Part shown: positions 29,577 through 41,602 of the stretch, one piece after another | How positions within the stretch are numbered: position 1 is the first letter of the stretch | Layout: the number at the start of each line of letters is the position of its first letter | Assembly: GCA_001804815.1 (NCBI GenBank) | Contig: MHBI01000065.1 | Location: 4,778-68,777, forward strand | DNA from: Lentisphaerae bacterium GWF2_50_93 | GTDB lineage: Bacteria; Verrucomicrobiota; Lentisphaeria; Victivallales; GWF2-50-93 | DNA length: 64,000 nt | Direction: 5' to 3' | The notes under the pieces: generated by a model | What the model was told of the DNA's origin: nothing | Seen by the model: only the letters and a program-made list of their open reading frames with translations | Database searches by the model: none | Position numbers and translations under genes: made by a program

Positions 29577-30209
29577 ATGTTCAAGGATTCACTATATTTC
29601 ATTAAAAAGAAGAGAATACTTCTTTCTCGATTCCTAGTCGTCCTTATTACGGCTATTTTTATTTTTACCGATCATTCGTGGAAGGATGAATTCTATCATT
29701 TCATAATCTTCCAGTCCATCGGCGGGTTCCTTGTAGCTTTCTGCATACTTGGACGCTTGTGGTCGGCCTTGTACATCGCAGGCAACAAGACGAAGAACCT
29801 CATCTCCGAGGGCCCTTATTCAATGGTACGGAACCCACTCTATTTTTTCAGCTTCTTTGGTGCAGTCGGACTTGGCCTGACCACTGAGAATCTCCTGATA
29901 CTTTTCCTGATCGTGGTCCTTTTCATCATTTATTACCCGTTCGTCATCATTGGAGAGGAGAAGAGGCTTATCGAGGTCCATGGCGAAGAGTTCCTGGACT
30001 ACATGAAGCATGTCCCGAGATTCATTCCGAATCCTTTCAAGCTCAAGGAGCCTGAATTCTACAACGTCAATGTGAAGAAGTACAAGATTGCCTTTGTCGA
30101 TGCCATGGGTTTCTTCTCGATATACATCTGCGTCCAGATCGTGAACATCCTGCACGCCGCAAAAGTGATTCCAGCATACTTCTCTATCCCCAAATGCTTC
30201 TTCTCATAA
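29577..30209 (+). CDS. Isoprenylcysteine carboxylmethyltransferase-family membrane methyltransferase
   Basis: A 210-residue integral membrane protein. The SAM-binding C-terminal signature of the ICMT/phospholipid methyltransferase family is visible: GPYSMVRNPLYFFSF (about 81-95) and EEKRLIEVHGEEFLDYMKHVPRFIPN (start about 123). Four to five hydrophobic segments surround it. Bacterial members methylate lipids, isoprenoids or unknown small molecules; protein prenylation does not occur in most bacteria. It is the only plus-strand gene between pgk and gapA and has no partner from which to infer a substrate. Confidence 0.85.
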   Translation: MFKDSLYFIKKKRILLSRFLVVLITAIFIFTDHSWKDEFYHFIIFQSIGGFLVAFCILGRLWSALYIAGNKTKNLISEGPYSMVRNPLYFFSFFGAVGLGLTTENLLILFLIVVLFIIYYPFVIIGEEKRLIEVHGEEFLDYMKHVPRFIPNPFKLKEPEFYNVNVKKYKIAFVDAMGFFSIYICVQIVNILHAAKVIPAYFSIPKCFFS

Positions 30210-30271
30210 GTAGCTCGGGCATTTCTCCCCAAGTTTCCATTTTCATGAGTCAATTGCTGAATTGGCAATTA

Positions 30272-30362
30272 AAGTAGGGACGGCCTTTAGGCTGTCCCAT
30301 GTATTTGGATTTCTATGTTCATAAAGCCCAAGAATGGTACATCCTGAAGGACGTACCTACTT
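30272..30362. repeat. Family B inverted repeat with longer centre
   Basis: AGTAGGGACGGCCTTTAGGCTGTCCC and ATGGTACATCCTGAAGGACGTACCTACT flank a 30-bp centre. It lies between the methyltransferase and the convergent gapA. Confidence 0.88.
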
Positions 30363-30369
30363 TCAAGAC

Positions 30370-30405
30370 AAAAAAACGGCAGGAATTTCTTCCTGCCGTT
30401 CAATT
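30370..30405 (-). terminator. Bidirectional intrinsic terminator (gapA)
   Basis: ACGGCAGGAA and TTCCTGCCGT enclose 4 nt, with A/T runs on both sides. On the minus strand the stem is followed by TTTTTTTGTC, 24 bp after the gapA stop codon. It can also serve the methyltransferase gene on the plus strand. Confidence 0.92.
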
Positions 30406-30423
30406 TTTATCTCGCCTGGATTA

Positions 30424-31500
<1,077 letters not shown>

Positions 31501-31560
31501 TTAAGCTATTGGTTCTGATGAAATAAAATCCGTCCTTAAAGTGAGACGGACAGAACCGTA

Positions 31561-31588
31561 ATTATATACGCAGGCAGTTGTTTTTCAA
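31561..31588 (-). promoter_or_regulatory. gapA sigma70 promoter
   Basis: On the minus strand TTGAAA (31583-31588) and the perfect -10 TATAAT (31561-31566) have a 16-bp spacer. The 70-nt leader contains GTCCGTCTC and GGACGGA, which can pair into a hairpin. Confidence 0.75.
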
Positions 31589-31639
31589 AGGTTTCTTATA
31601 AAATTTTCAGGATGAAATTTTTATAGTCGGCCCCGGGTA

Positions 31640-31668
31640 TTGAAATTAAGGAAGATTTTTGATATTAT
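31640..31668 (+). promoter_or_regulatory. sigma70 promoter of the parvulin-like gene
   Basis: TTGAAA (31640-31645) and TATTAT (31663-31668) are spaced by exactly 17 bp, 33 bp before the ATG. The ribosome-binding site AAGGAGG follows at 31689. Confidence 0.75.
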
Positions 31669-31701
31669 TGTTGGAGTCAATAACTGGAAGGAGGCCTTGA
31701 A

Positions 31702-32742
31702 ATGAGCTTTTTGAAACCTGCCATTGGAATAATAATTGCCGTTTTACTGTTTTGTCCGGTTTATGCCCAGCAGAAGAAAAATCCCCAGGTACAGCCAGCG
31801 GCGCCAGTCGAACCTAAGAAACCGGTCTACACGGGAAAGGACATCCCCCAGGGGCCTCTTGAAAACCTGATGGTGAAGGTTGGAGCAGGAGGCGTAACAA
31901 AAGGCGACTATGACTTTTTCATGCTGAAGACTGCGAACAAGGCCGGAAAGACAGTAAGCGCGCTTTCAGGCGATGAAAAGAAACAGGCGCTGTTCAGCGC
32001 AATAGACGAAGAGCTTCTTTTCCAGGCGGCTCTTGCTGAAGGAGTCCTCAAGGATGAATATACGTGCTGGATGATACTCGGGACTTACAAGTCGAACAAT
32101 ACGACCGCAAAAATCGATCCCAGGACTTTCAGCGACGATGAGCTGGAAAAATTCTACAAGGCAAATCCCGGAAAATTCACAAGGCCCGCCTCTGTGAACG
32201 CGAAAGGGCTCAAGTTCATGACCGAATCCGTCCAGGAGGTGCAGAAAGTGCTGAAGCAGGTTACTACGAATCCCGACAGCGCTAAAAACTGGATCGTTCT
32301 GGGATGGATAGAGGAGGGCAGGATGGCGGCCGGTCTTCCCCAGCAAATAACTGATCCCATCACAAAACTCAAGAAAGGACAGCTTTCGGGAATTGTGAAT
32401 GACAAGATTTCAGGCTGGAAATTCATATTCCTGGCAACTGACAGGAAAGAACCTGAACTTATCCCGTTTGCCGAGGCGAAGGGTAAGGTGAAATTCGAGC
32501 TCATAGGAGCGAAGCAGGAGGAGATGAAGAAGAAGCTTGCTGCAGACCAAGGCAAGGGGCAGAAAGGCCTTTCCGAAGACGAGATACTGCTCAATTCCGC
32601 AATACAGGCCGGCGCGCAGCGTGAACTCCAGGTCAGAAGATACATTGTCGAGTGGTATCTTTCGAAGAAGGCTGCAAAACGTGAGCAGGCGCTTCCGGAT
32701 CTGAAGAAGAAATACAAGATTGAAATCCTGAAGAGCGAGTGA
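31702..32742 (+). CDS. Periplasmic SurA/PpiC-like (parvulin-type) foldase
   Basis: A 346-residue secreted protein with signal peptide (about 1-23, ending VYA). A helical chaperone part (about 60-150) has the SurA/PpiD pattern VTKGDYDFFM ... FYKANPGKFTRPASVNAKGLKF. It is followed by a parvulin-like core with LGWIEEGRMAAGLPQQI and ISGWKFIFLATDRKEPELIPFAEAKGKV. The core is shorter than a full parvulin domain and lacks some conserved His/Asp residues. It may therefore act as a chaperone without isomerase activity. The gene is preceded by a good promoter and ribosome-binding site and stands alone. Confidence 0.75.
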   Translation: MSFLKPAIGIIIAVLLFCPVYAQQKKNPQVQPAAPVEPKKPVYTGKDIPQGPLENLMVKVGAGGVTKGDYDFFMLKTANKAGKTVSALSGDEKKQALFSAIDEELLFQAALAEGVLKDEYTCWMILGTYKSNNTTAKIDPRTFSDDELEKFYKANPGKFTRPASVNAKGLKFMTESVQEVQKVLKQVTTNPDSAKNWIVLGWIEEGRMAAGLPQQITDPITKLKKGQLSGIVNDKISGWKFIFLATDRKEPELIPFAEAKGKVKFELIGAKQEEMKKKLAADQGKGQKGLSEDEILLNSAIQAGAQRELQVRRYIVEWYLSKKAAKREQALPDLKKKYKIEILKSE

Positions 32743-32746
32743 ATTT

Positions 32747-32780
32747 GGTAGGTGCGCCCTTTAGGGTGTACCATGAATTT
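32747..32780. repeat. Half copy of family B repeat
   Basis: GGTAGGTGCGCCCTTTAGGGTGTACCATG, one arm only, directly after the foldase stop codon. A second small palindrome, CGACTGCCGGTCGTCAGCCGTAGG-like, follows around 32815-32842. Confidence 0.7.
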
Positions 32781-32843
32781 TAATAGAGAAATACTGCTTG
32801 GATATTCTGATTCGACCTACGGCTGACGACCGGCAGTCGTAGG

Positions 32844-34826
32844 TTATTTCTCTTCTACTTCCTGATGCGTTTCATACATGGTGAGCTCTTCACCGGTCCT
32901 GACGAGTCTTGCGCTGTTGAAGAGGACTATTGTCGTGCTGACCGTATGCAGGGCTGCCGCTATGATGGGAGGCAGCATTCCGAATACCGACAGGCTTATT
33001 CCGCCGACAATGAAGACAAATCCTATTAGGAGGTTCTGTTTTATGATTTTCCCCGACTGCCGGGAGAGGACTATCAGGAGAGGAATACGACGCAGGTCGT
33101 TTGTCATCAGTGCGATTGACGCGCTGTTGATCGCGATGTCGCTGCCGATCGCGCCCATGGCTATACCAAGATCGCCTGCGGCGAGGGCGGGGGCGTCGTT
33201 TATTCCGTCGCCGACAACCGCGACAGTATAGTTATGCTTGATTTCCTTGACGTATGCGACCTTGTCGTCAGGCAGGCATTCCGACCTGACGCTTTCTATG
33301 CCAAGTTCCTTGGAAACCAAGTCTGCAACCTCTTTCCTGTCGCCGGTGACCATGGCACAGTGCTTGATACCGTCTTCCTTAAGCGACTTGATGGCGTCTG
33401 CGGCTTCTTTCCTGACAGTATCCCGGAATCCTATCCAGCCGAGGGCCTTGCCCTGTGAAGCGACATATACTACGCTCATGGCGCTTCCTCCATCGGCATC
33501 CGGAGTTTCAAGGGAGGAAATGTTGATACTATGTGACTTGAGCCATTCAGCTCTTCCAATCATGGATTTCTTGCCGTCAAGCAAGCCTTCTACTCCTTTG
33601 CCATGTACTTCGCTGAATTTATCAACTTCAGTTATTTTAAGCTTGGCTTCCTTTGCAAGATTCTGGAGGGCTATCGCCGTAGGATGGTTGCTGTGGCTCT
33701 CGATGGACGCTGCGATCTGGAGGAGATCCGCAGGTTGGATGCCTTCAGCAGGAGCAAGTCTCACGACGGAAAGCGTGCCTTCGGTAAGAGTACCTGTCTT
33801 GTCGAAAATAACGGCCCTGACCTTCGCCGCAAGCTCAAGATATGAGACATTCTTAATGAGAATTCCGAGCCTGGCGGCAGCCGCAAGCGCTGCAACAACA
33901 GCTGAAGGCGCGGCGAGAACGAGGGCGCATGGACATGAGGCCACAAGGACGGAAATCACATTCGTCATATTGCCGCCTGAGAACCACCATGTTAGACCTG
34001 CAATCATCAGGATCGTGGGAGTATAATATCCGGCATATTGATCGATGACCCTGACTATTGGAGGCTTGGTGGTTTCCGCTGCAAGGATCATATCCTTGAC
34101 CTTGCCAAGAGTGGTATCCTTGCCGACTTTTGTAACATTGATATCAATGACACCTGTCAGATTCTGGGTACCGGCGAAGACATCATTGCCTTCCTCTTTA
34201 TCTATAGGGAATGATTCACCGGTGATTGAAGCCTGGTTGACCGTGCTTGAGCCTTTGACGATGGATCCGTCAACAGGGAAGTTTTCTCCGGGGCGAATCC
34301 TGATGATGTCTCCGATGGTAAGCGAGAGGACGTCAACGTCCGATTCCTGCCCATCGCTTATCTTTCTGGCGGAGCGAGGTGTCAGTTTGATGAGTTCCTC
34401 GATGGATCTCTGGGCACCGTGGGCAGTCCTGGATTCAATGATGATCGCGATCAGCAGGAAGAAGCAGATTATTCCTGCGGTCCTGAAATCTCCGCCTGCG
34501 AGGGCCGCAAGTACTGCAAGGGCCACCAGCTCGTTCATGTAGACCTTGCCTTTTGCAAGATCCTTGAATGCGACTATGAAGATAGGAAGGGCGAGTATCA
34601 CCGCGCCGAATATGGCGCTGAGTTCCGATGTGAAGGCCTGATCGGGCTGCATCCAGCGCAGGATATAGGAATTCAATACGAAAAAACCCCCGACGAGGGC
34701 AATGCTGAGTCTCCCGAGGCTGCGGCTGTGTCCTGCACCTCCGGCCTCATGATCATGCTCGTGATCGCAGCCGCAGATTTCGCTGTGGGCGTCAAATACC
34801 TTTTTTTCAGCTGTCAGTTCAGCCAT
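32844..34826 (-). CDS. P1B-type heavy-metal translocating ATPase
   Basis: A 660-residue metal pump. An N-terminal His/Cys cluster (CGCDHEHDHEAGGAGH, 18-33) replaces a usual HMA domain. Actuator motif TGES lies at 202-205, the membrane metal motif C298-P-C300, the phosphorylated D342 in DKTGTLTEG, and the hinge GDGINDAP near 540. The last transmembrane helix reads LHTVSTTIVLFNSARL instead of the D-x-G...N pattern of Zn/Cd pumps or the YN/MxxS pattern of Cu pumps, so the ion cannot be assigned. It is the last gene of an operon with three SPFH genes, 3 bp after the HflK-like gene. Probable efflux in the cytoplasmic membrane. Confidence 0.9.
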   Translation of the reverse strand: MAELTAEKKVFDAHSEICGCDHEHDHEAGGAGHSRSLGRLSIALVGGFFVLNSYILRWMQPDQAFTSELSAIFGAVILALPIFIVAFKDLAKGKVYMNELVALAVLAALAGGDFRTAGIICFFLLIAIIIESRTAHGAQRSIEELIKLTPRSARKISDGQESDVDVLSLTIGDIIRIRPGENFPVDGSIVKGSSTVNQASITGESFPIDKEEGNDVFAGTQNLTGVIDINVTKVGKDTTLGKVKDMILAAETTKPPIVRVIDQYAGYYTPTILMIAGLTWWFSGGNMTNVISVLVASCPCALVLAAPSAVVAALAAAARLGILIKNVSYLELAAKVRAVIFDKTGTLTEGTLSVVRLAPAEGIQPADLLQIAASIESHSNHPTAIALQNLAKEAKLKITEVDKFSEVHGKGVEGLLDGKKSMIGRAEWLKSHSINISSLETPDADGGSAMSVVYVASQGKALGWIGFRDTVRKEAADAIKSLKEDGIKHCAMVTGDRKEVADLVSKELGIESVRSECLPDDKVAYVKEIKHNYTVAVVGDGINDAPALAAGDLGIAMGAIGSDIAINSASIALMTNDLRRIPLLIVLSRQSGKIIKQNLLIGFVFIVGGISLSVFGMLPPIIAAALHTVSTTIVLFNSARLVRTGEELTMYETHQEVEEK

Positions 34827-34829
34827 ACG

Positions 34830-35987
34830 TCATTTATCCTTCTCTTTATCCTTGTCGTCCTTCTTCTGGTATCTCGGCTCGGGATTGAGCATGATCCTCA
34901 CCTCGTGCGACCCGTTGCTGTCTTCCGGAATGATATATTTCTCCTTCACATTCTCAAGCATGCCTGAAATCGTGTCGGTATAGAGCGCTATGAGGGTGGA
35001 ACGGGGGCTCTTCTTATATTCCTCGAGGATCTTCTTGAAATAGATCTGTTCGGCTTCGATGTCGGTGACTATCTGTATCTTGTAGACTTCTGCATCGGCG
35101 ATAATCCTCGAAGCATCGGAAACGGTTTCCCCTTCAATGGTCACGGCATAGGCCTTTGCATTCTCCTTTTCCGTTGCGCACTGCAGTTCGGCATCAATGA
35201 CCTCCTGAAAGGCGGCGACAGTGTTCAGAGGGGCGGTAATGCTCTTGGGAATGAGATTCTCCACTTTTAAGCCAATATCCCAGTCAGTTATATCCTTCTC
35301 GAAAAGTCTTCTGACTTCCGCAGTGTAATCGGTGGAATGTTTGTAGAGGGCTGCGTCGACCTGCTGGGTGGCTGTCGCCTTTATAACTGCATTTTCAAGA
35401 AGTGCCTGGATAAGAGTTCTCGGACCTCTTGTGCCGATGATTTTATGGTTGACGGGATTGACGAGCATCTCATCCATCCTGAGCGGTTCGGAAGGGCAGA
35501 GGCATTTCAGGTAATATTTCATTGGATCGATGACTGAATATACAAGTTCCCATTCCGTATGGATAATGTTGGCATCACCGGTAATAAGATATCCGTCCTT
35601 TCCAGCTGAAAGAGTCGGCCCTGCCTGCTGCTGCTGCTCTCCCTTGATGGCCTTCACATCGGCCTTATGCCAAAAGGAAGTTAGAGTCAGGGTCTGCTTG
35701 CTGATCGGTATTCTTATGATTTTGCTGACAGGATATGGGAACGACCAGTAGTATCCGGCATCATGTTTTTCCACGACTTTGCCGAATCGTTCAACAATTA
35801 CGTTCTCCTGCGGTTTGACCTCATAGTAGCCCCCGAACGTGAAATACCAGATTATAAGGAAAGCTATCAGGCAGGAAAGAAGGATGAACGCGATGTGGAG
35901 GCTTCTTGTAAGCGCATCGATACCGGCCTTGTAGTGCCCGTTGCCCTCGGCACCATTCACTTCAGGTTTATTTTTGTGTTCGGACAT
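34830..35987 (-). CDS. SPFH/band-7 protein, HflK-like
   Basis: A 385-residue membrane protein with one N-terminal transmembrane helix (about 30-50). A band-7 domain starts GGYYEVKPQENVIVERFGKVVEKHDAGYYWSFPYP. A long helical coiled-coil region (about 245-340) is followed by a charged tail (KKDDKDKEKDK). HflK partners HflC as a cage around FtsH in E. coli. The insert around 105-130 is Gln-rich (GEQQQQ). It is third in the operon, 20 bp after the HflC-like gene and 3 bp before the metal ATPase gene. No ftsH is adjacent, so the partner protease, if any, is encoded elsewhere. Confidence 0.85.
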   Translation of the reverse strand: MSEHKNKPEVNGAEGNGHYKAGIDALTRSLHIAFILLSCLIAFLIIWYFTFGGYYEVKPQENVIVERFGKVVEKHDAGYYWSFPYPVSKIIRIPISKQTLTLTSFWHKADVKAIKGEQQQQAGPTLSAGKDGYLITGDANIIHTEWELVYSVIDPMKYYLKCLCPSEPLRMDEMLVNPVNHKIIGTRGPRTLIQALLENAVIKATATQQVDAALYKHSTDYTAEVRRLFEKDITDWDIGLKVENLIPKSITAPLNTVAAFQEVIDAELQCATEKENAKAYAVTIEGETVSDASRIIADAEVYKIQIVTDIEAEQIYFKKILEEYKKSPRSTLIALYTDTISGMLENVKEKYIIPEDSNGSHEVRIMLNPEPRYQKKDDKDKEKDK

Positions 35988-36007
35988 CTTGTTTCACCTT
36001 GAAAACA

Positions 36008-36973
36008 TCATTTAGTTTTTTTAGCCTCTTTATCGGAACTCAGATTCTGGTCAAGCTTCAGAAGGTCGAACGGAGCATAGTCCGTATTCAGGATGAGCGT
36101 CGTCTTGTTGGGTATGATCTTGCGCAGGGATTCGAGTTTCCTGAGGAAGGCGGCGAGTTCAGGCTCCTCTTTGAAAATTGAGTAGTAGGAAGCGGCCTTC
36201 GCATCGCCTTCGGCCTTGATCTGTTTGGCCTGGGCCTCGGCTTCGGCAAGTTTCAACTTGCGGTTGTTGTCCGCCTGGATCCTGATATTAGTCGCCTCGC
36301 TTTTTCCGTCAGCCCTGAACTGTTCAGCTACGACATTTCGTTCCGCTTTCATCCTGTTGAAGACATTTTCAGTGTTCTTGTCAGGAAGGTTGAGCACCTT
36401 GATTCCTACGAATTCCACCTGGATGCCATACTTGTCGAGAACTATGGGGGAAATTCCCTTTTTCATTTCAGTCTCTATTTCGTCAATCTTCATCTTCTTG
36501 GGATTTGTATTCACCAGCTCCTCGAATTTGAATTTTCCGAGAACGGCGTTTTTGACGGTCCTCATCTGGCTGTTGATCTTGTCTTCCGCCTGTGATATGT
36601 CGGGGATTGCAAGGCTCTTGAACAGCTTTTCGGCGTCGACAATCTTGTATACGACGAAAATACCTGCGACGATCGGCTGTCCGTCGGCTGTGTAGGTCTC
36701 CTCGATCTTCCCAGTGCTTCCATCGAAGCAGTGGTAGCGGTTGTCGAACCTGTGTACTTTCTGGAAGGGATATGGCCAGCAGAAATGAAGGCCGGCTTCC
36801 TTGACACCGGAGATCTTTCCGAGGGTTGTTATGACCACCGATTCTGTGGATTTCACCTGGAATGTGAATATTGCAAAAAGGAATATTACAGAAACTATCA
36901 GGCCGAGAAGCAGCGTCGGCCAGTGCTGCAATATCTTCAACTTATCTTTTCCGCTCATTTTCTTTTCCTCCAT
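36008..36973 (-). CDS. SPFH/band-7 protein, HflC-like
   Basis: A 321-residue protein with one N-terminal transmembrane helix (about 20-40). An HflC-like band-7 domain follows: VKSTESVVITTLGKISGVKEAGLHFCWPYPFQKV. The characteristic helix FNRMKAERNVVAEQFRADG...EATNIRIQADNNRKLKLAEAEAQAKQIKAEGDA is present. This Ala/Glu-rich helix forms the cage wall in HflKC. Its ATG overlaps the stop of the upstream gene (TAATG), so translation is coupled. Second gene of the four-gene operon. Confidence 0.88.
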   Translation of the reverse strand: MEEKKMSGKDKLKILQHWPTLLLGLIVSVIFLFAIFTFQVKSTESVVITTLGKISGVKEAGLHFCWPYPFQKVHRFDNRYHCFDGSTGKIEETYTADGQPIVAGIFVVYKIVDAEKLFKSLAIPDISQAEDKINSQMRTVKNAVLGKFKFEELVNTNPKKMKIDEIETEMKKGISPIVLDKYGIQVEFVGIKVLNLPDKNTENVFNRMKAERNVVAEQFRADGKSEATNIRIQADNNRKLKLAEAEAQAKQIKAEGDAKAASYYSIFKEEPELAAFLRKLESLRKIIPNKTTLILNTDYAPFDLLKLDQNLSSDKEAKKTK

Positions 36974-38904
36974 TATTTCTTATTGAGTTCATCGGACAGG
37001 TCGCCAAGATCGGCATCTATGATGTCCATGCGCGCCTTTTCCTCGAAATTGAATATGTAGACATTGTTGGTGTCGGTGTCGCCGACAACTATCTTCCTGA
37101 CTTCGCCGCAGTCCTTTTCGAAGAAGTCGAGGTAGGTCCTGAGCTTGTACATTTCAGGCATGATCCTGTAGGCTTCGAGCTGTTTCTTGAACCTCATCAT
37201 CTCCGCTTCCGAAAGCCTTATGGCATTGTCTCTCTCGGTCTCTGCCTCCTTCACGATCTTCGAGGCTTCAGCCATGGCGTATGGAAGAGTCTTGTTCTCA
37301 TAGGCTCTTGCATTCAATATTGATGCTTCCTTCTCCTGGCGTGCGCTGGCGACCTCTTCAAATGACGGTGCGACTTTGTCAAATGGGGGATGGACCCCGA
37401 GGAGGTTCACGGAAACAATTTCTACGCCAATGTTCATCTGGTTTGCAGAGTCCTGTATGTTTTTGAACAGGTCAGTGACCGCCTTCCCGCGTTCAATGGA
37501 CATCAGTTTGAGAAGATCCACGCTCGCGAGATATTTGCTGATTTCCCTTTCCGCGATCGATTTGACGAACACGGGTATGTCGCAGTTCCTGAACGCGAAA
37601 TCATAAACCTTGTCTTCCTGGGCACGATATTGTATCGTGAATATGGTTGATAAAAACGATACTGGCGTCTCCTTGTCGTTTGGCTTCTTCTCCGAGGCGA
37701 CTATGTATCTCTCCTCTTTTCCGGAATGCTGCACCGTCCAGAGAACAACTTCAGGACTTATTTCTTCACCTTTTTCGTTCTTCATGTCGGCGCCAATGAT
37801 TATCTCCTGTATCTTGTTGACCGGAATCCTCGTCATTTTTCCGAACGGCCAGGGGAGTTTGAAGTGGACGCCTTCGGGCAACGGCTGCAGATCGACTATC
37901 TTGCCGAAGTTCTCCCGGACCCCGACCTCTCCCGGAGCCACCTCCGAGACGCATGTGAAGATCCATAGAGTGGAAAGCCATGCGATTATCAGAGGTATCA
38001 TCGACTTTTCAAAGAATCCGTAGATCCATGTCCTGGATACCTTGAAACCGAACTGGTAGTCAAGTGTGTCTGAAATATTCCTAAGTAGTCCGCCTGGTTC
38101 CGTGAAAAGCGCCAGTATGCGGCTTTCAAAAATAGGCCTTTCCTCGATAATCGACCTTGGACGGTAGAACTCGACGATGAAATTGAAGAGAAGCTCAGCG
38201 CCCAGCACGGTGGAGATGATGAATATAATCTTCTTTATGATGCGGTTCCAGAGGGGAAGGTCGTATTTGAACATGAATATCGCGAATGTCGCCAGTATTC
38301 CGAGGATTGCTGCAAGTACAAGCCAGCTGCCAAGGGGCCTGAGCCAGCGGAAGTTCTTCTCCCTTGACTGCCCTATGAAGAATATGCCTGTGAAGATGAA
38401 GAAAACTGATGCAAGACCGGTCATGAATGCCGCAAGAGATGGATTTACGGGGACCGGTATCTCGACCCTGGTCCTCCAGTGGCTCCAGAAGAACAGCAGG
38501 ATGACCGTTATCAGGATGAAATTCAGGGCAGCCACAATATACGGGGAGAACTTTATGAAATTGGAAAGGGTTCTTGAAGCTGAGAACAGCACGTCTTCAC
38601 CGGACTCAAGGGCTTTCTTCTCCTTCCTCTTCTCGAGAAGTATCCTGTCTTCCTCCTCTTGCGCCGACTTGGAACCCAGATAGCCGAGTATGCAGGCGTT
38701 GAAGGCCAGGATGGTTGAGATGAGATAGGGTATGACAAGGAGTGAGAATGAATCCACGCCCACGATATTCTTCACGATGCCGAACCAGAAAATCAGTATG
38801 CAGGAAACTAAGGCGCCAATGCCTGTAAGCATCGACAGGTTCTGCATCTGCCTGGATTCGTCCATTTTAAGCTGGATTTCTTTTTCAAATTTCATTTTCA
38901 GCAT
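36973..38904 (-). CDS. Large SPFH/band-7 protein with polytopic N-terminal membrane domain
   Basis: A 643-residue protein. The first about 300 residues carry seven or eight hydrophobic segments, interrupted by a charged loop (EEEDRILLEKRKEKKALE). They are followed by a band-7 domain beginning VSEVAPGEVGVRENFGKIVDLQPLPEGVHFKLPWPFGKM and a long helix with ASARQEKEASILNARAYENKTLPYAMAEASKIVKEAETERDNA. This is an HflK-like half fused to an unrelated polytopic module, about twice the size of standard HflK. It is the first gene of the operon. The membrane part is unrecognised and may sense, transport or anchor. An alternative start at 38895 is three codons later. Confidence 0.82.
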   Translation of the reverse strand: MLKMKFEKEIQLKMDESRQMQNLSMLTGIGALVSCILIFWFGIVKNIVGVDSFSLLVIPYLISTILAFNACILGYLGSKSAQEEEDRILLEKRKEKKALESGEDVLFSASRTLSNFIKFSPYIVAALNFILITVILLFFWSHWRTRVEIPVPVNPSLAAFMTGLASVFFIFTGIFFIGQSREKNFRWLRPLGSWLVLAAILGILATFAIFMFKYDLPLWNRIIKKIIFIISTVLGAELLFNFIVEFYRPRSIIEERPIFESRILALFTEPGGLLRNISDTLDYQFGFKVSRTWIYGFFEKSMIPLIIAWLSTLWIFTCVSEVAPGEVGVRENFGKIVDLQPLPEGVHFKLPWPFGKMTRIPVNKIQEIIIGADMKNEKGEEISPEVVLWTVQHSGKEERYIVASEKKPNDKETPVSFLSTIFTIQYRAQEDKVYDFAFRNCDIPVFVKSIAEREISKYLASVDLLKLMSIERGKAVTDLFKNIQDSANQMNIGVEIVSVNLLGVHPPFDKVAPSFEEVASARQEKEASILNARAYENKTLPYAMAEASKIVKEAETERDNAIRLSEAEMMRFKKQLEAYRIMPEMYKLRTYLDFFEKDCGEVRKIVVGDTDTNNVYIFNFEEKARMDIIDADLGDLSDELNKK

Positions 38905-39132
38905 TTATTTCTGGATTAATCTTAAAAATGGCATGGATATGCTATTTTATATACTTAACTTGTAGTACGATAATTTTACCTTATTAAAACAGTAATATAG
39001 CGACTTTAAAAATGGTTTCAAACTGAAAATCAAAATTCGGTGTCAGTATTTAATCATCATTTGACACGCAGGTTGTAAATAAGTTCCAGAGATAATATAC
39101 TACTGGGTTAATTATATCAAGGACAGGGATTT

Positions 39133-40152
39133 ATGTGGAAAATTTTCGGGGGTGTTAAAAAGGAGAAGGAGCTCTACGAGGGAAAGGATGACGTCAAGCC
39201 ATCCGTTGAACTCCTCAACGGCAACTGCCTGGAATGCAGTTCCTGCCATACAATGATCAGCCTTCTGAATTTTCCGCCTCTCACCTTATCAAAATGCACC
39301 CAGTGCGATGCCACTATTTTCATCCCCTACAATATTAAGGATTTCTGGCTGTACCGCCCCCTCGGCGGAGGCGGAATGGGCAGTGTCTACAAGGCTGTGC
39401 ACCATGATTATCCTGAAATGGAGTTCGCGGTGAAAGTCCTTCCAAGGGACAACAAGGAGAATCCACACCTGATCGAGATGCTCATACATGAGGCTTCGGT
39501 CGGCAAGGCTTTTGGACAGCATCCCCATCTCACCTTTGTAGCCGATTTCGGACATTACAAGGATGAATACTTCAGCGCCATGCAGTTCTGCCCAGGACAG
39601 AGGCTCGATCAGATCATTGATTCACAGGAGCTGATACCCCAGAAGATGGTGCTTCTCTGGGCCCTCCAGATACTTTCCGCCGAACAGAGGATGTATGACT
39701 GCGGATATCTCTACAGGGATTTGAAGCCCCAGAACATAATAATCGACAAGGAAGGCAATGCACACCTGATCGATTACGGCCTGTGCATCGGGATTGAAGA
39801 CGCCCATAACAAGGATGCTGAAACCGTCGATGGTTCCCCTCTCTACATGCCTCCGGAGAGGATTGTAGGAATGCCTGAAAATATGACAAGCGAGATATAC
39901 AGCCTTGGGATGGTAATGTTCCATGCGCTGACAAAGAGCACCTATTATACTGCCACAGGCGCATATGAGGTTGCAAGAAAACATGTTTCGAGCCTCAGGA
40001 TGGCGAATGTCTCATCACGTCTTCCCATCACTGTCAGCCCAAAGATCGCCTCAATCCTCGACAAGATGGTTGCACGGCTCCCGTCCGAACGCTACCAGAC
40101 ATACAAGGAAACGGCGGTCGTCATCAAGGATGTCTACAATTCCCTAAAGTAG
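39133..40152 (+). CDS. Ser/Thr protein kinase with N-terminal zinc ribbon (kinase 2)
   Basis: A 339-residue cytoplasmic kinase clearly paralogous to kinase 1 at 18467. The zinc ribbon C35/C38 ... C55/C58 is followed without linker by LGGGGMGSVYKA (77-88), K101, the catalytic loop YRDLKPQN (D196) and D214-Y-G in place of DFG. The substitution His to Tyr in HRD and Phe to Tyr in DFG is shared in kind by both paralogues. The gene is divergent from the SPFH/ATPase operon across a 228-bp AT-rich region, so a regulatory link is possible. The TAG stop is supplied by a family B repeat. Confidence 0.9.
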   Translation: MWKIFGGVKKEKELYEGKDDVKPSVELLNGNCLECSSCHTMISLLNFPPLTLSKCTQCDATIFIPYNIKDFWLYRPLGGGGMGSVYKAVHHDYPEMEFAVKVLPRDNKENPHLIEMLIHEASVGKAFGQHPHLTFVADFGHYKDEYFSAMQFCPGQRLDQIIDSQELIPQKMVLLWALQILSAEQRMYDCGYLYRDLKPQNIIIDKEGNAHLIDYGLCIGIEDAHNKDAETVDGSPLYMPPERIVGMPENMTSEIYSLGMVMFHALTKSTYYTATGAYEVARKHVSSLRMANVSSRLPITVSPKIASILDKMVARLPSERYQTYKETAVVIKDVYNSLK

Positions 40153-40185
40153 GTACGGGCTTTAGCCTGTACCATTCTTAAATTC
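40147..40185. repeat. Half copy of family B repeat at the kinase 2 stop
   Basis: AAAGTAGGTACGGGCTTTAGCCTGTACC begins inside the last codons of kinase 2 and provides its TAG, exactly as the copy at 3049 does for ogt. Confidence 0.85.
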
Positions 40186-40243
40186 ATATGAGCGCTGGCT
40201 TCTCGGGGTCTTGTAGGATTTTGATTTGCGCGTCCAATGTCGC

Positions 40244-40580
40244 TTACTTCAGCAGTTCGCCCGATTTCCGCCACTGTCCAGCTTCATCCCTCAGATTGTA
40301 CTTTTCTGCGAGTTTCGCAAGTTTCTCATACCATTGGATTCACATTTGTCCAGGATGTATCCTGCGAGAAACTGCTTGCCTCCCACACCCCATTTCCGGG
40401 TGGCGCCCTGTGGAATCACATTGTCTCCTGCCTTGTCGAGCTTTTTAACCGGAGATTGAAGAATGCTGAAAGAAACTCTGAGGTCGTTTCGATGATCATC
40501 CCATGAAAATCGGTGATTGAAAGCCGGAATTTCATGGTAGATGGAGTTTGCCTGAATACTGTTCCGTATCTTACAGGATG
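40244..40580 (-). pseudogene. Frameshifted, 5'-truncated gene remnant downstream of ribD
   Basis: The minus strand is open without a start codon from just after ribD. It encodes about 80 residues with ordinary composition, for example HEIPAFNHRFSWDDHRNDLR and DNVIPQGATRKWGVGGKQFL. Around 40325 the reading shifts by one base and continues as WYEKLAKLAEKYNLRDEAGQ ... SGELLK with a stop at 40244. I do not recognise the family. The absence of a start and the internal frameshift mark it as a decayed fragment, unless the shift is an assembly error. Confidence 0.6.
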
Positions 40581-40582
40581 TA

Positions 40583-41602
40583 TTATTCTTTCATATATCC
40601 GCTTATGCATATATCCTCGTCTATTGTTTTCAATGAAACATTTTTCAGCTGGAACGCTTTTGACAGCGAATCAGGATCTGTTCCTCCAACCACCGGACGG
40701 CTGTTCCTGCCTCCTAGGATCTTCGGAGCGATATGGAATTCAACTTTGTCTATTATTCCGGCATTCAGCATTTCCGCGGCGAGTTCTCCTCCTCCTTCTA
40801 CAAGAATTGAAGTGACGTTTTCTTTTCCAAGTCTTTTAAGTTCTGAAATCCATTCCTGACGGTTCTTCGGGGAGATGACTTCCGGTTCAGTTCCGGGAGG
40901 AAGAAGATTTTTCAGTTTTTCAGGTGTCAGGTGTCTGGATATGATTATCCGTCTCGGCTGTTTGGCGGTCCGGAATTCGCGGATTGTCAGCGATGGCTTG
41001 TCTGTCCTTGCAGTTTCGCCACCGACCATGACAGCATCCGCCCATTGCCTTAATTTCTGGACTCTTGCCCTCGCCTTGGGACCTGTCACCCATTTCGAAT
41101 CGCCTTTCGAGGTGGCGATCTTTCCGTCGAGAGTCATTGCCATTTTCAGGAGAACAAAAGGCCTGCCGGTGGTTATCCAGTGGAAAAAGGCGTCATTAAG
41201 CTCACGGCATTCTTTCTCCATAATATTAGCAGTAACTTCGATCCCAGCCTTCTGTAGTACCTTCAATCCTTTGCCGGCATGTTTCGGATTCGGATCAAAA
41301 CAGCCGACTACGACCTTTCTTATTCCAGAAGATATAATTGCGTCAGTGCATGGAGGAGTCCTTCCGAAAGTGCAGCACGGCTCAAGAGTCACGTATAGCG
41401 TAGCATTCCTGGCGTTCCGGCCGGCATCATTCAGTGCATTTACTTCGGCGTGCGCTTCTCCGGCGCGCCTGTGAAATCCTTTTCCGACGGCCTTTCCATT
41501 TTTGACGACAACGGCGCCGACCATCGGATTCGGTGAAGTTCCGCCCCATCCCCGTTTCGCGAGCGTAAGGGCGAGAGACATGAATTTTATGTCGGACTGC
41601 AT
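40583..41602 (-). CDS. ribD: Bifunctional riboflavin biosynthesis protein RibD (deaminase/reductase)
   Basis: Second and third steps of riboflavin synthesis. The N-terminal zinc deaminase domain (1-145) has AHAEVNAL and LEPCCTFGRTPPC with the zinc ligands. The C-terminal DHFR-like reductase (150-339) has the start of its domain at RPFVLLKMAMTLDGKIA, then VGGETARTDKPSLT and LVEGGGELAAEML. Length 339 is a little shorter than E. coli RibD. It is last in the FMN-riboswitch operon, after ribBA, ribH, nusB, ftsY and a peptidase. Riboflavin synthase (ribE) is missing from the window. Confidence 0.95.
   Translation of the reverse strand: MQSDIKFMSLALTLAKRGWGGTSPNPMVGAVVVKNGKAVGKGFHRRAGEAHAEVNALNDAGRNARNATLYVTLEPCCTFGRTPPCTDAIISSGIRKVVVGCFDPNPKHAGKGLKVLQKAGIEVTANIMEKECRELNDAFFHWITTGRPFVLLKMAMTLDGKIATSKGDSKWVTGPKARARVQKLRQWADAVMVGGETARTDKPSLTIREFRTAKQPRRIIISRHLTPEKLKNLLPPGTEPEVISPKNRQEWISELKRLGKENVTSILVEGGGELAAEMLNAGIIDKVEFHIAPKILGGRNSRPVVGGTDPDSLSKAFQLKNVSLKTIDEDICISGYMKE

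Follow-up and report, generated by a model that had tools for sequence, protein, structure and literature searches.

The locus and its closest described relatives

The subject of this study is an operon of four genes that encodes three SPFH proteins (genes A, B and C) and a P1B (heavy-metal) P-type ATPase (gene D). It lies on a 64,000-nucleotide stretch of DNA from Lentisphaerae bacterium GWF2_50_93 (GenBank assembly GCA_001804815.1, contig MHBI01000065.1, positions 4,778 to 68,777), hereafter the window. Five groups of described systems resemble the operon: a Pseudomonas aeruginosa gene cluster around the metal ATPase HmtA, the HflK/HflC-FtsH complex of Escherichia coli, the CDF/SLC30 zinc transporters, the PacL1-CtpC pair of Mycobacterium tuberculosis and the SPFH-NfeD operons.

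For P. aeruginosa, the published annotation has three SPFH genes near the P1B ATPase HmtA: one of the HflK family, one HflC and one of the HflC family (PMC4542158). HmtA is a copper/zinc importer by description (PMC8456098). The deletion of znuA raised PA2437 14.4-fold, PA2438 10.6-fold, PA2439 9.0-fold and HmtA (PA2435) 5.6-fold, and the Zur site of the cluster was weak and putative (PMC4542158). Zur with zinc bound the promoter of PA2439 (PMC8531726). Under zinc depletion the cluster proteins were elevated, significantly for PA2438 and PA2439; the SPFH proteins were read as HflC and HflK, with PA2436 lying in between (PMC11761036). Elsewhere, PA2437-PA2439 were called FtsH modulators (PMC9431628). 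PaFlo5-PaFlo7, the SPFH proteins of the cluster in strain PA14, were placed in one predicted operon, confined to a small subset of species, in a paper whose main text holds neither the word ATPase nor HmtA (PMC13086221).

By its published composition, three SPFH genes plus the P1B ATPase HmtA, the cluster PA2434-PA2439 equals the operon of the window, and the order A-B-C-D is also that of Pseudomonas relatives, P. syringae (L135) among them. It is the apparent characterised relative of the window operon. An earlier annotation of the window from its letters alone (the original prediction) had known of no characterised system with such a composition, a claim not supported in view of the published description of this cluster and of its induction by zinc depletion. 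What ties the cluster to the window is its published annotation, together with loci of P. syringae and other Pseudomonas; no P. aeruginosa was among the best 80 of 323 relatives of A. The window differs from the cluster in having no Zur-like box beyond chance.

The other systems share single traits with the operon. Compared with HflK/HflC-FtsH of E. coli, A has a similar SPFH domain, long helices and C-terminal strands, and its charge pattern fits a periplasmic topology, which we take to be that of HflK. The operon differs in having three SPFH genes, a duplicated HflK, six extra helices on A, and a metal ATPase instead of a protease as the linked enzyme. The transmembrane fold of A in the predicted model resembles CDF/SLC30 transporters (YiiP, ZnT1, SLC30A10, ZnT3), but A has no sequence match to them and no conserved metal ligands, and its membrane module is followed by an SPFH domain. 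In mycobacteria, PacL platforms have been described (PMC9374683), and PacL1 is needed for abundant CtpC, with which it co-localises in membrane foci (PMC13043812). Here too a P1B ATPase is served by a membrane scaffold of its own, which its operon apparently encodes, but PacL1 is a chaperone-like DUF1490 protein instead of an SPFH protein, and the foci do not depend on flotillin (PMC13043812). A 2009 survey of 497 genomes defined 12 SPFH subfamilies; its main text never uses the word ATPase (PMC2636767). In the SPFH1, SPFH2 and SPFH5 operons an SPFH gene has a conserved operon partner as well, which is NfeD and not an ATPase (PMC2636767).

The features of the operon, in window coordinates, are as follows (aa, amino acids; TM, transmembrane helix).

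36973..38904, minus strand: gene A, polytopic SPFH protein, 643 aa (Pfam Band_7/SPFH; AlphaFold2 model; fold matches; tree)
Gene A, residues 2-247: six-helix CDF/YiiP-like module; 293-316: SPFH anchor helix; 319-505: SPFH domain (HflK lineage); 511-598: long helices
36008..36973, minus strand: gene B, HflC-like SPFH protein, 321 aa, single N-terminal hydrophobic stretch (Pfam; NCBIfam TIGR01932; HflC-side clade)
34830..35987, minus strand: gene C, HflK-like SPFH protein, 385 aa, single N-terminal hydrophobic stretch (Pfam; NCBIfam; HflK-side clade of its own)
32844..34826, minus strand: gene D, P1B (heavy-metal) P-type ATPase, 660 aa, short His/Cys-rich N-terminus, CPC in TM6, His in TM8 (NCBIfam; motifs; clade)

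The four open reading frames (ORFs) occupy 32844-38904 on the minus strand, with gaps of -1, 20 and 3 bp, as the original prediction had described. Its gene calls (a 643-aa polytopic SPFH protein, an HflC-like protein, an HflK-like protein and a P1B ATPase) were borne out by Pfam and NCBIfam. A, B and C each matched Pfam Band_7/SPFH. B scored 136.4 bits against the NCBIfam HflC model (TIGR01932), above the cut-off of 134.4, and A and C matched the hflK model under its cut-off. D reached 568.8 bits with the heavy-metal P-type ATPase model (cut-off 346.25). Its sequence carries the CPC and DKTGT motifs and the predicted His/Cys cluster, found at the N-terminus as ICGCDHEHDHE; Pfam recognized no HMA domain in D.

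We propose, with a probability of about 0.6, that the operon encodes a dedicated metal-transport complex, in which an HflK/C-type SPFH assembly of A, B and C scaffolds and encloses the HmtA-type P1B ATPase D. The argument is that the four genes are inherited together and that the same set occurs in distant bacteria, which probably makes them one metal-transport machine.

Co-inheritance of the four genes

We inspected 60 loci from the phylum of the window (Verrucomicrobiota in GTDB; L038-L097), selected for diversity. Three were canonical hflKC pairs and four were other SPFH loci of the window's own genome. Among the 53 remaining loci, 44 had A-B-C-D in order on one strand, four had D-A-B-C, and five were incomplete at contig ends or splits. 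The gene order stayed unchanged while the identities of A dropped to 17-20% across the phylum. Some genomes (G046, G088, G132) had two or three copies of the system, and every copy included an ATPase.

In 288 genomes of the phylum, A and D were found together in 113, A without D in four, and D without A in none. Most D genes (111/124) were located at most 8 kb from A on the same strand, and ATPases of the D clade occurred under 23 family labels among the matches listed. The D scores were bimodal (at least 742 bits, then at most 605 bits), so that the cut between them is not arbitrary; the 11 D rows at or below 605 bits were left out of the count, the next row above being at 742 bits, as were short matches to canonical HflK and any second fragment of A. 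A and D were scored in the best four or fewer candidates per genome and the weakest A matches were unlisted, so that genomes with no match may be undercounted positives and absences are less sure than presences. Kinship among the 288 genomes inflates any P value for the co-occurrence.

The four genomes with A only had a truncated D visible at the contig end (G067, G245) or a contig that stops before the start of D (G213, G185). Of the 13 D genes away from A, three were at contig breaks (G135, G053, G126), one began at a contig end (G086:C55), and one had a C-terminal fragment of A nearby (G249). In genus g17 the operon is broken. There we saw four D loci with B-C-D and no A, and two loci with A alone (the loci of G109 and G123 were left out), and each genome with a B-C-D locus had A on another contig. 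In G197, A-B-C was found apart from D. A broken operon whose parts are retained in the genome is more telling for co-inheritance than counts among related genomes.

Outside the phylum, tblastn recovered the four-gene set from plasmids that belong to Paraburkholderia, Burkholderia, Rhizobium and Klebsiella aerogenes. A profile scan of genome contigs with an alignment from Pseudomonadota yielded 323 confirmed relatives of A, and we retained the best 80. All of these best 80 and six of the seven plasmid loci had A-B-C-D in order on one strand; L102 is a canonical hflKC locus, and in L131 there is an additional reading frame for A. Since A had been the query that led to these loci, a test in the opposite direction, starting from D, matters. 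D was detected in 11 of 398 Pseudomonadota genomes, one of them being the centre genome, known beforehand. All 11 carried A on the contig and strand of D, the two starts being separated by 3.8-4.6 kb. This search used one Burkholderia protein (E <= 1e-110, best three or fewer candidates per genome) and would miss a more distant D. Between the window and the Burkholderia/Rhizobium versions, D shared ~37% identity, and A, B and C 21-31%. No relative of query P0001 was found in viral contigs.

The occurrence of the same four genes in the same order across the window's phylum and Pseudomonadota indicates that the operon is more than a chance arrangement. The expectation that a P1B ATPase is accompanied by three different types of SPFH protein thus holds in two phyla, and the synteny is not confined to one strain.

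In Burkholderia ubonensis and Klebsiella aerogenes (L101, L103) the set is carried by plasmids typed as conjugative, with transposase genes close by, and for this reason it is probably mobile. On a Paraburkholderia sprentiae plasmid (L098), its neighbourhood includes genes for the copper chaperone PCu(A)C, a DUF2946 protein and metal ABC transporters. Pseudomonas nitroreducens 381H (L147) has the full A-B-C-D set. This stands in contrast to the reported distribution of paFlo5-paFlo7, which among ten other Pseudomonas reference genomes, including P. nitroreducens, were given solely for P. knackmussii and P. syringae (PMC13086221).

The linked ATPases form one clade

When 72 P-type ATPases were placed in a tree, all 50 that are linked to SPFH genes (37 from the window's phylum, 13 from Pseudomonadota) grouped in a single clade with an SH-aLRT of 100, in which the D of the window stood together with the sampled Pseudomonas SPFH-linked ATPases. 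The 22 other P-type ATPases, including ZntA and CopA of E. coli, fell outside. Beyond ZntA and CopA, these comparison proteins were matches of the P1B model from genomes carrying the system, with L186 and L228 being under the P1B cut-off. The tree came from a quick search (LG+G4), with a long-branch warning among the 22.

TM6 had the motif CPC in 40 of the 50 linked ATPases, and TM8 had a His in 46 of the 50, against 2 of the 22 others. This combination differs from what we take to be the signatures of ZntA, CopA and CoaT. In four D proteins (L065, L067, L077, L085), TM6 had CPV, CPI or CPM and the TM8 His was replaced by Gln. The joint change at both positions suggests, from the residues, that these four ATPases may handle a different metal.

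Three SPFH lineages and the relation to FtsH

In a tree of 92 SPFH proteins, A (support 82) and C (SH-aLRT 99) each had a clade to itself within the HflK side, and B (support 81) fell on the HflC side. The canonical HflK clade had a support of 97, and A, B and C each stood apart from canonical HflK and HflC. This tree also came from a quick search, both trees carried warnings for long branches or odd composition, and the supports of 81 and 82 are modest. From these clades, the trio reads as an HflK-HflK'-HflC' set: we found no simple orthologous hflK-hflC pair, but three genes whose clades are distinct from the canonical HflK and HflC ones and stand beside them. The SPFH part of A had HflK as its best Foldseek match (7vhq_E, 1.3e-13), and VIA gave a Z of 15.9.

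The B clade included one lone paralogue from the window's own genome. It is an HflC-like gene (L094:7381-8325, contig G000:C97), ~52% identical to B; A, C and D were absent from the surrounding 16 kb.

The three lineages bear on a different explanation, by which the trio would act as assembly or stability factors, a chaperone-like scaffold that clusters and protects the ATPase with neither cage nor vestibule, by analogy with PacL1 and CtpC. Such a scaffold would explain the strict co-inheritance of A and D, and the dependence of abundant CtpC on PacL1, together with their shared membrane foci, offers a precedent (PMC13043812). The CtpC platforms, however, form without the flotillin-like protein and use PacL1 instead of an SPFH protein (PMC13043812). 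The operon, in contrast, retains three families of SPFH proteins that have features of the HflK/C type. That three separate lineages are kept together suggests a defined hetero-oligomer, and we consider the scaffold explanation possible but rather unlikely.

A second explanation keeps the trio with FtsH, as an alternative HflK/C-type modulator of the protease in metal starvation, with the ATPase merely co-regulated. PA2437-PA2439 have been read in this way (PMC11761036, PMC9431628), and the SPFH domains of the trio are HflK/C-like. FtsH is encoded on another contig of the window's genome. With the FtsH of this genome as tblastn query, we detected FtsH in none of the 158 loci holding the system or part of it, so the trios do not occur mainly with ftsH. 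This is weak evidence against an FtsH role, because no ftsH is annotated within 7.5 kb around hflKC of E. coli either. Two further results weigh against the FtsH-modulator explanation: none of the 113 D-carrying genomes of the phylum is without A, and the linked ATPases form one clade. In P. aeruginosa PA14, deletion of hflK-hflC raised pyocyanin as in the ftsH mutant, and deletion of the trio did not do so significantly (PMC13086221). We therefore regard the FtsH explanation as clearly improbable.

The membrane module of gene A

The AlphaFold2 model of A, built from 61 sequences, had a pLDDT of 86.4. It showed six long membrane helices (residues 2-247), two short helices and an anchor helix (293-316), followed by the SPFH domain, long helices and two C-terminal strands, the stretch that matches HflK. 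The original prediction had seen an unrecognised module of 7-8 helices. The model has seven helices in all, of which six make up the module and one is the usual SPFH anchor, and the six have a CDF/YiiP-like predicted fold and are thus recognizable.

Modelled alone, the module reached a pLDDT of 91.3 and a pTM of 0.84. It matched YiiP with a Z of 17.4 (root-mean-square deviation 2.6 A over 188 residues), ZnT1 with 15.5 and SLC30A10 with 15.1. Residues 14-253 of A matched the transmembrane fold of CDF/SLC30 proteins (YiiP, ZnT1, SLC30A10, ZnT3) with Z up to 17.6. The top 25 rows of the structure ranking for the module were all CDF proteins, and the first unrelated chain followed at Z 8.5; in such comparisons, a best Z of ~14 is possible for helical models that have no clear relative. 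In Foldseek, the top four rows were CDF proteins, with E-values of 0.12-0.27 and probabilities of 0.95-0.99. The A modules of Pseudomonadota aligned to that of the window at 11-17% identity (alignment only).

The fold raises the question of whether A is itself an active CDF-type transporter, so that the operon would encode two metal pumps in series across the membrane. The model has the full CDF transmembrane fold, beside a metal ATPase. We take the tetrahedral metal site of CDF proteins to consist of Asp/His on TM2 and TM5. These helices of A had on average 0.6 and 0.5 Asp, Glu or His, and none at all in 34 and 33 of the 60 rows; no conserved Asp/Glu/His was found in them. Among the charged residues of the membrane helices, E237 (TM6) alone was conserved in at least 90% of rows in both groups. 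Cation_efflux was absent among the best 25 of 68 families listed for the A module. The modelled module thus combines a CDF-like fold with a transport site that lacks conservation. Two pumps in series are, in our judgement, very improbable.

In the loops of A, Lys and Arg numbered 925 on the predicted cytoplasmic side and 117 on the predicted periplasmic side, with this bias in 60/60 sequences (the cytoplasmic segments are also longer). The charge bias, the six helices and the anchor place the N-terminus of A inside and its SPFH domain in the periplasm. This presumably agrees with the topologies of CDF proteins and HflK.

Regulation and neighbouring genes

Two features upstream of gene A may bear on its expression.

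38905..39132, minus strand: intergenic region, expected operon promoter, divergent to the Ser/Thr kinase gene at 39133
39021-38994, and just beyond the region 39139-39111, minus strand: promoter-like hexamers (consensus matches only)

No Rfam element was found in window positions 30000-41000. In the window's phylum we found no conserved palindrome or Zur-like box 5' of A. When the window and 23 other loci of the phylum were compared with a Zur-like consensus, solely L040 stood above chance (4/100 shuffles). In the loci L133-L184 (51 named Pseudomonas and one metagenome-assembled genome), 46 of 52 had a palindrome before A, e.g. CGTTATATCGTAACG, that scored at least 11/15 against the same consensus; in those 46, the score was reached by 0-12% of 60 shuffles of the same region. 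Among Burkholderiales, one of 28 loci (L105-L132) reached 11/15. A box in Pseudomonas but not in the window's phylum supports zinc control for Pseudomonas only.

The divergent gene at 39133-40152 (plus strand) is Ser/Thr kinase-like, and L038, from the same genus, has an ORF of equal length in the same place. At the other end, a hairpin of 12 pairs at 32814-32845 overlaps the final bases of the D stop codon (terminator-like scan, plus-strand listing). We scanned 86 of 140 listed neighbouring ORFs in 25 loci of the phylum. An ABC transporter ATPase was located on the D side in 13 of the 25, among them L042:14149-16785 and L047:1190-3812, where an ABC-2-like permease adjoins it. It is a possible accessory of the system. 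We set it aside as a system member, since it is missing beside D in the window.

Weighing the proposed complex

Several observations weigh against a metal-transport complex of all four proteins. In P. aeruginosa, hmtA mRNA was low and unrepressed by zinc (PMC8531726), hmtA was excepted from Zur binding, and the claim that HmtA imports metal rests on HmtA overexpression and needs confirmation (PMC10393844). Deletion of the trio in PA14 left growth in LB normal, and the phenotypes were mild, with less biofilm and some larval attenuation (PMC13086221). In the accessible literature on the cluster, no physical contact between the ATPase and the SPFH proteins is reported. Of the 124 D genes in the window's phylum, eight (six from genus g17, plus those of G197 and G086:C26) were encoded at a locus other than that of A. 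The best Zur-like box of the window scored 10/15, which was equalled in 94 of 100 shuffles, against a consensus that may not be that of this phylum. The CDF likeness of the module is structural only: Foldseek gave no E-value below 0.001, Pfam gave three weak unrelated families (E up to 1) and no Cation_efflux for the window module, and hhalign aligned the module to CDF with a probability of 15%.

If the four proteins do form a metal-transport complex, A and C of the HflK lineage and B of the HflC lineage would assemble together, and their ring would hold D in the inner membrane, where D would take the place that belongs to FtsH in a classical HflK/C cage. The CDF-like module of A would then be a structural part, a ring wall or a docking site for D, and not a second pump. 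The cage may form a periplasmic vestibule that controls the metal reaching or leaving D. By analogy with Pseudomonas, the system could serve zinc, and possibly copper, homeostasis under scarcity.

A more specific and doubtful extension is a caged P-type ATPase, in which the HflK/C-derived cage, with CDF-fold modules set into its membrane ring, would alter the working of the P1B ATPase. A periplasmic vestibule sealed over the pump would either let it import or fill with metal to load exported metalloproteins. We found no description of such an architecture in the literature searched. If true, the import mode would explain the puzzling reports of import by HmtA.

The operon represents a conserved four-part system that is known piecemeal from Pseudomonas and unrecognised as a whole in the literature searched. 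We found no paper in the open-licence literature searched that treats all four parts as one system, and the accessible part of PMC13220708 has nothing on it. The parts have been treated separately: HmtA as a lone zinc/copper pump, PA2437-PA2439 as FtsH modulators, and PaFlo5-PaFlo7 as SPFH proteins without a clear function. The operon also unites three families that organise metals or membranes, since its SPFH protein A includes a domain of predicted CDF fold and a metal ATPase is encoded alongside. If the parts are one machine, the SPFH trio would gain a client and HmtA would gain the missing subunits for its unusual biology, and the question of what SPFH cages contain besides FtsH would become directly testable.

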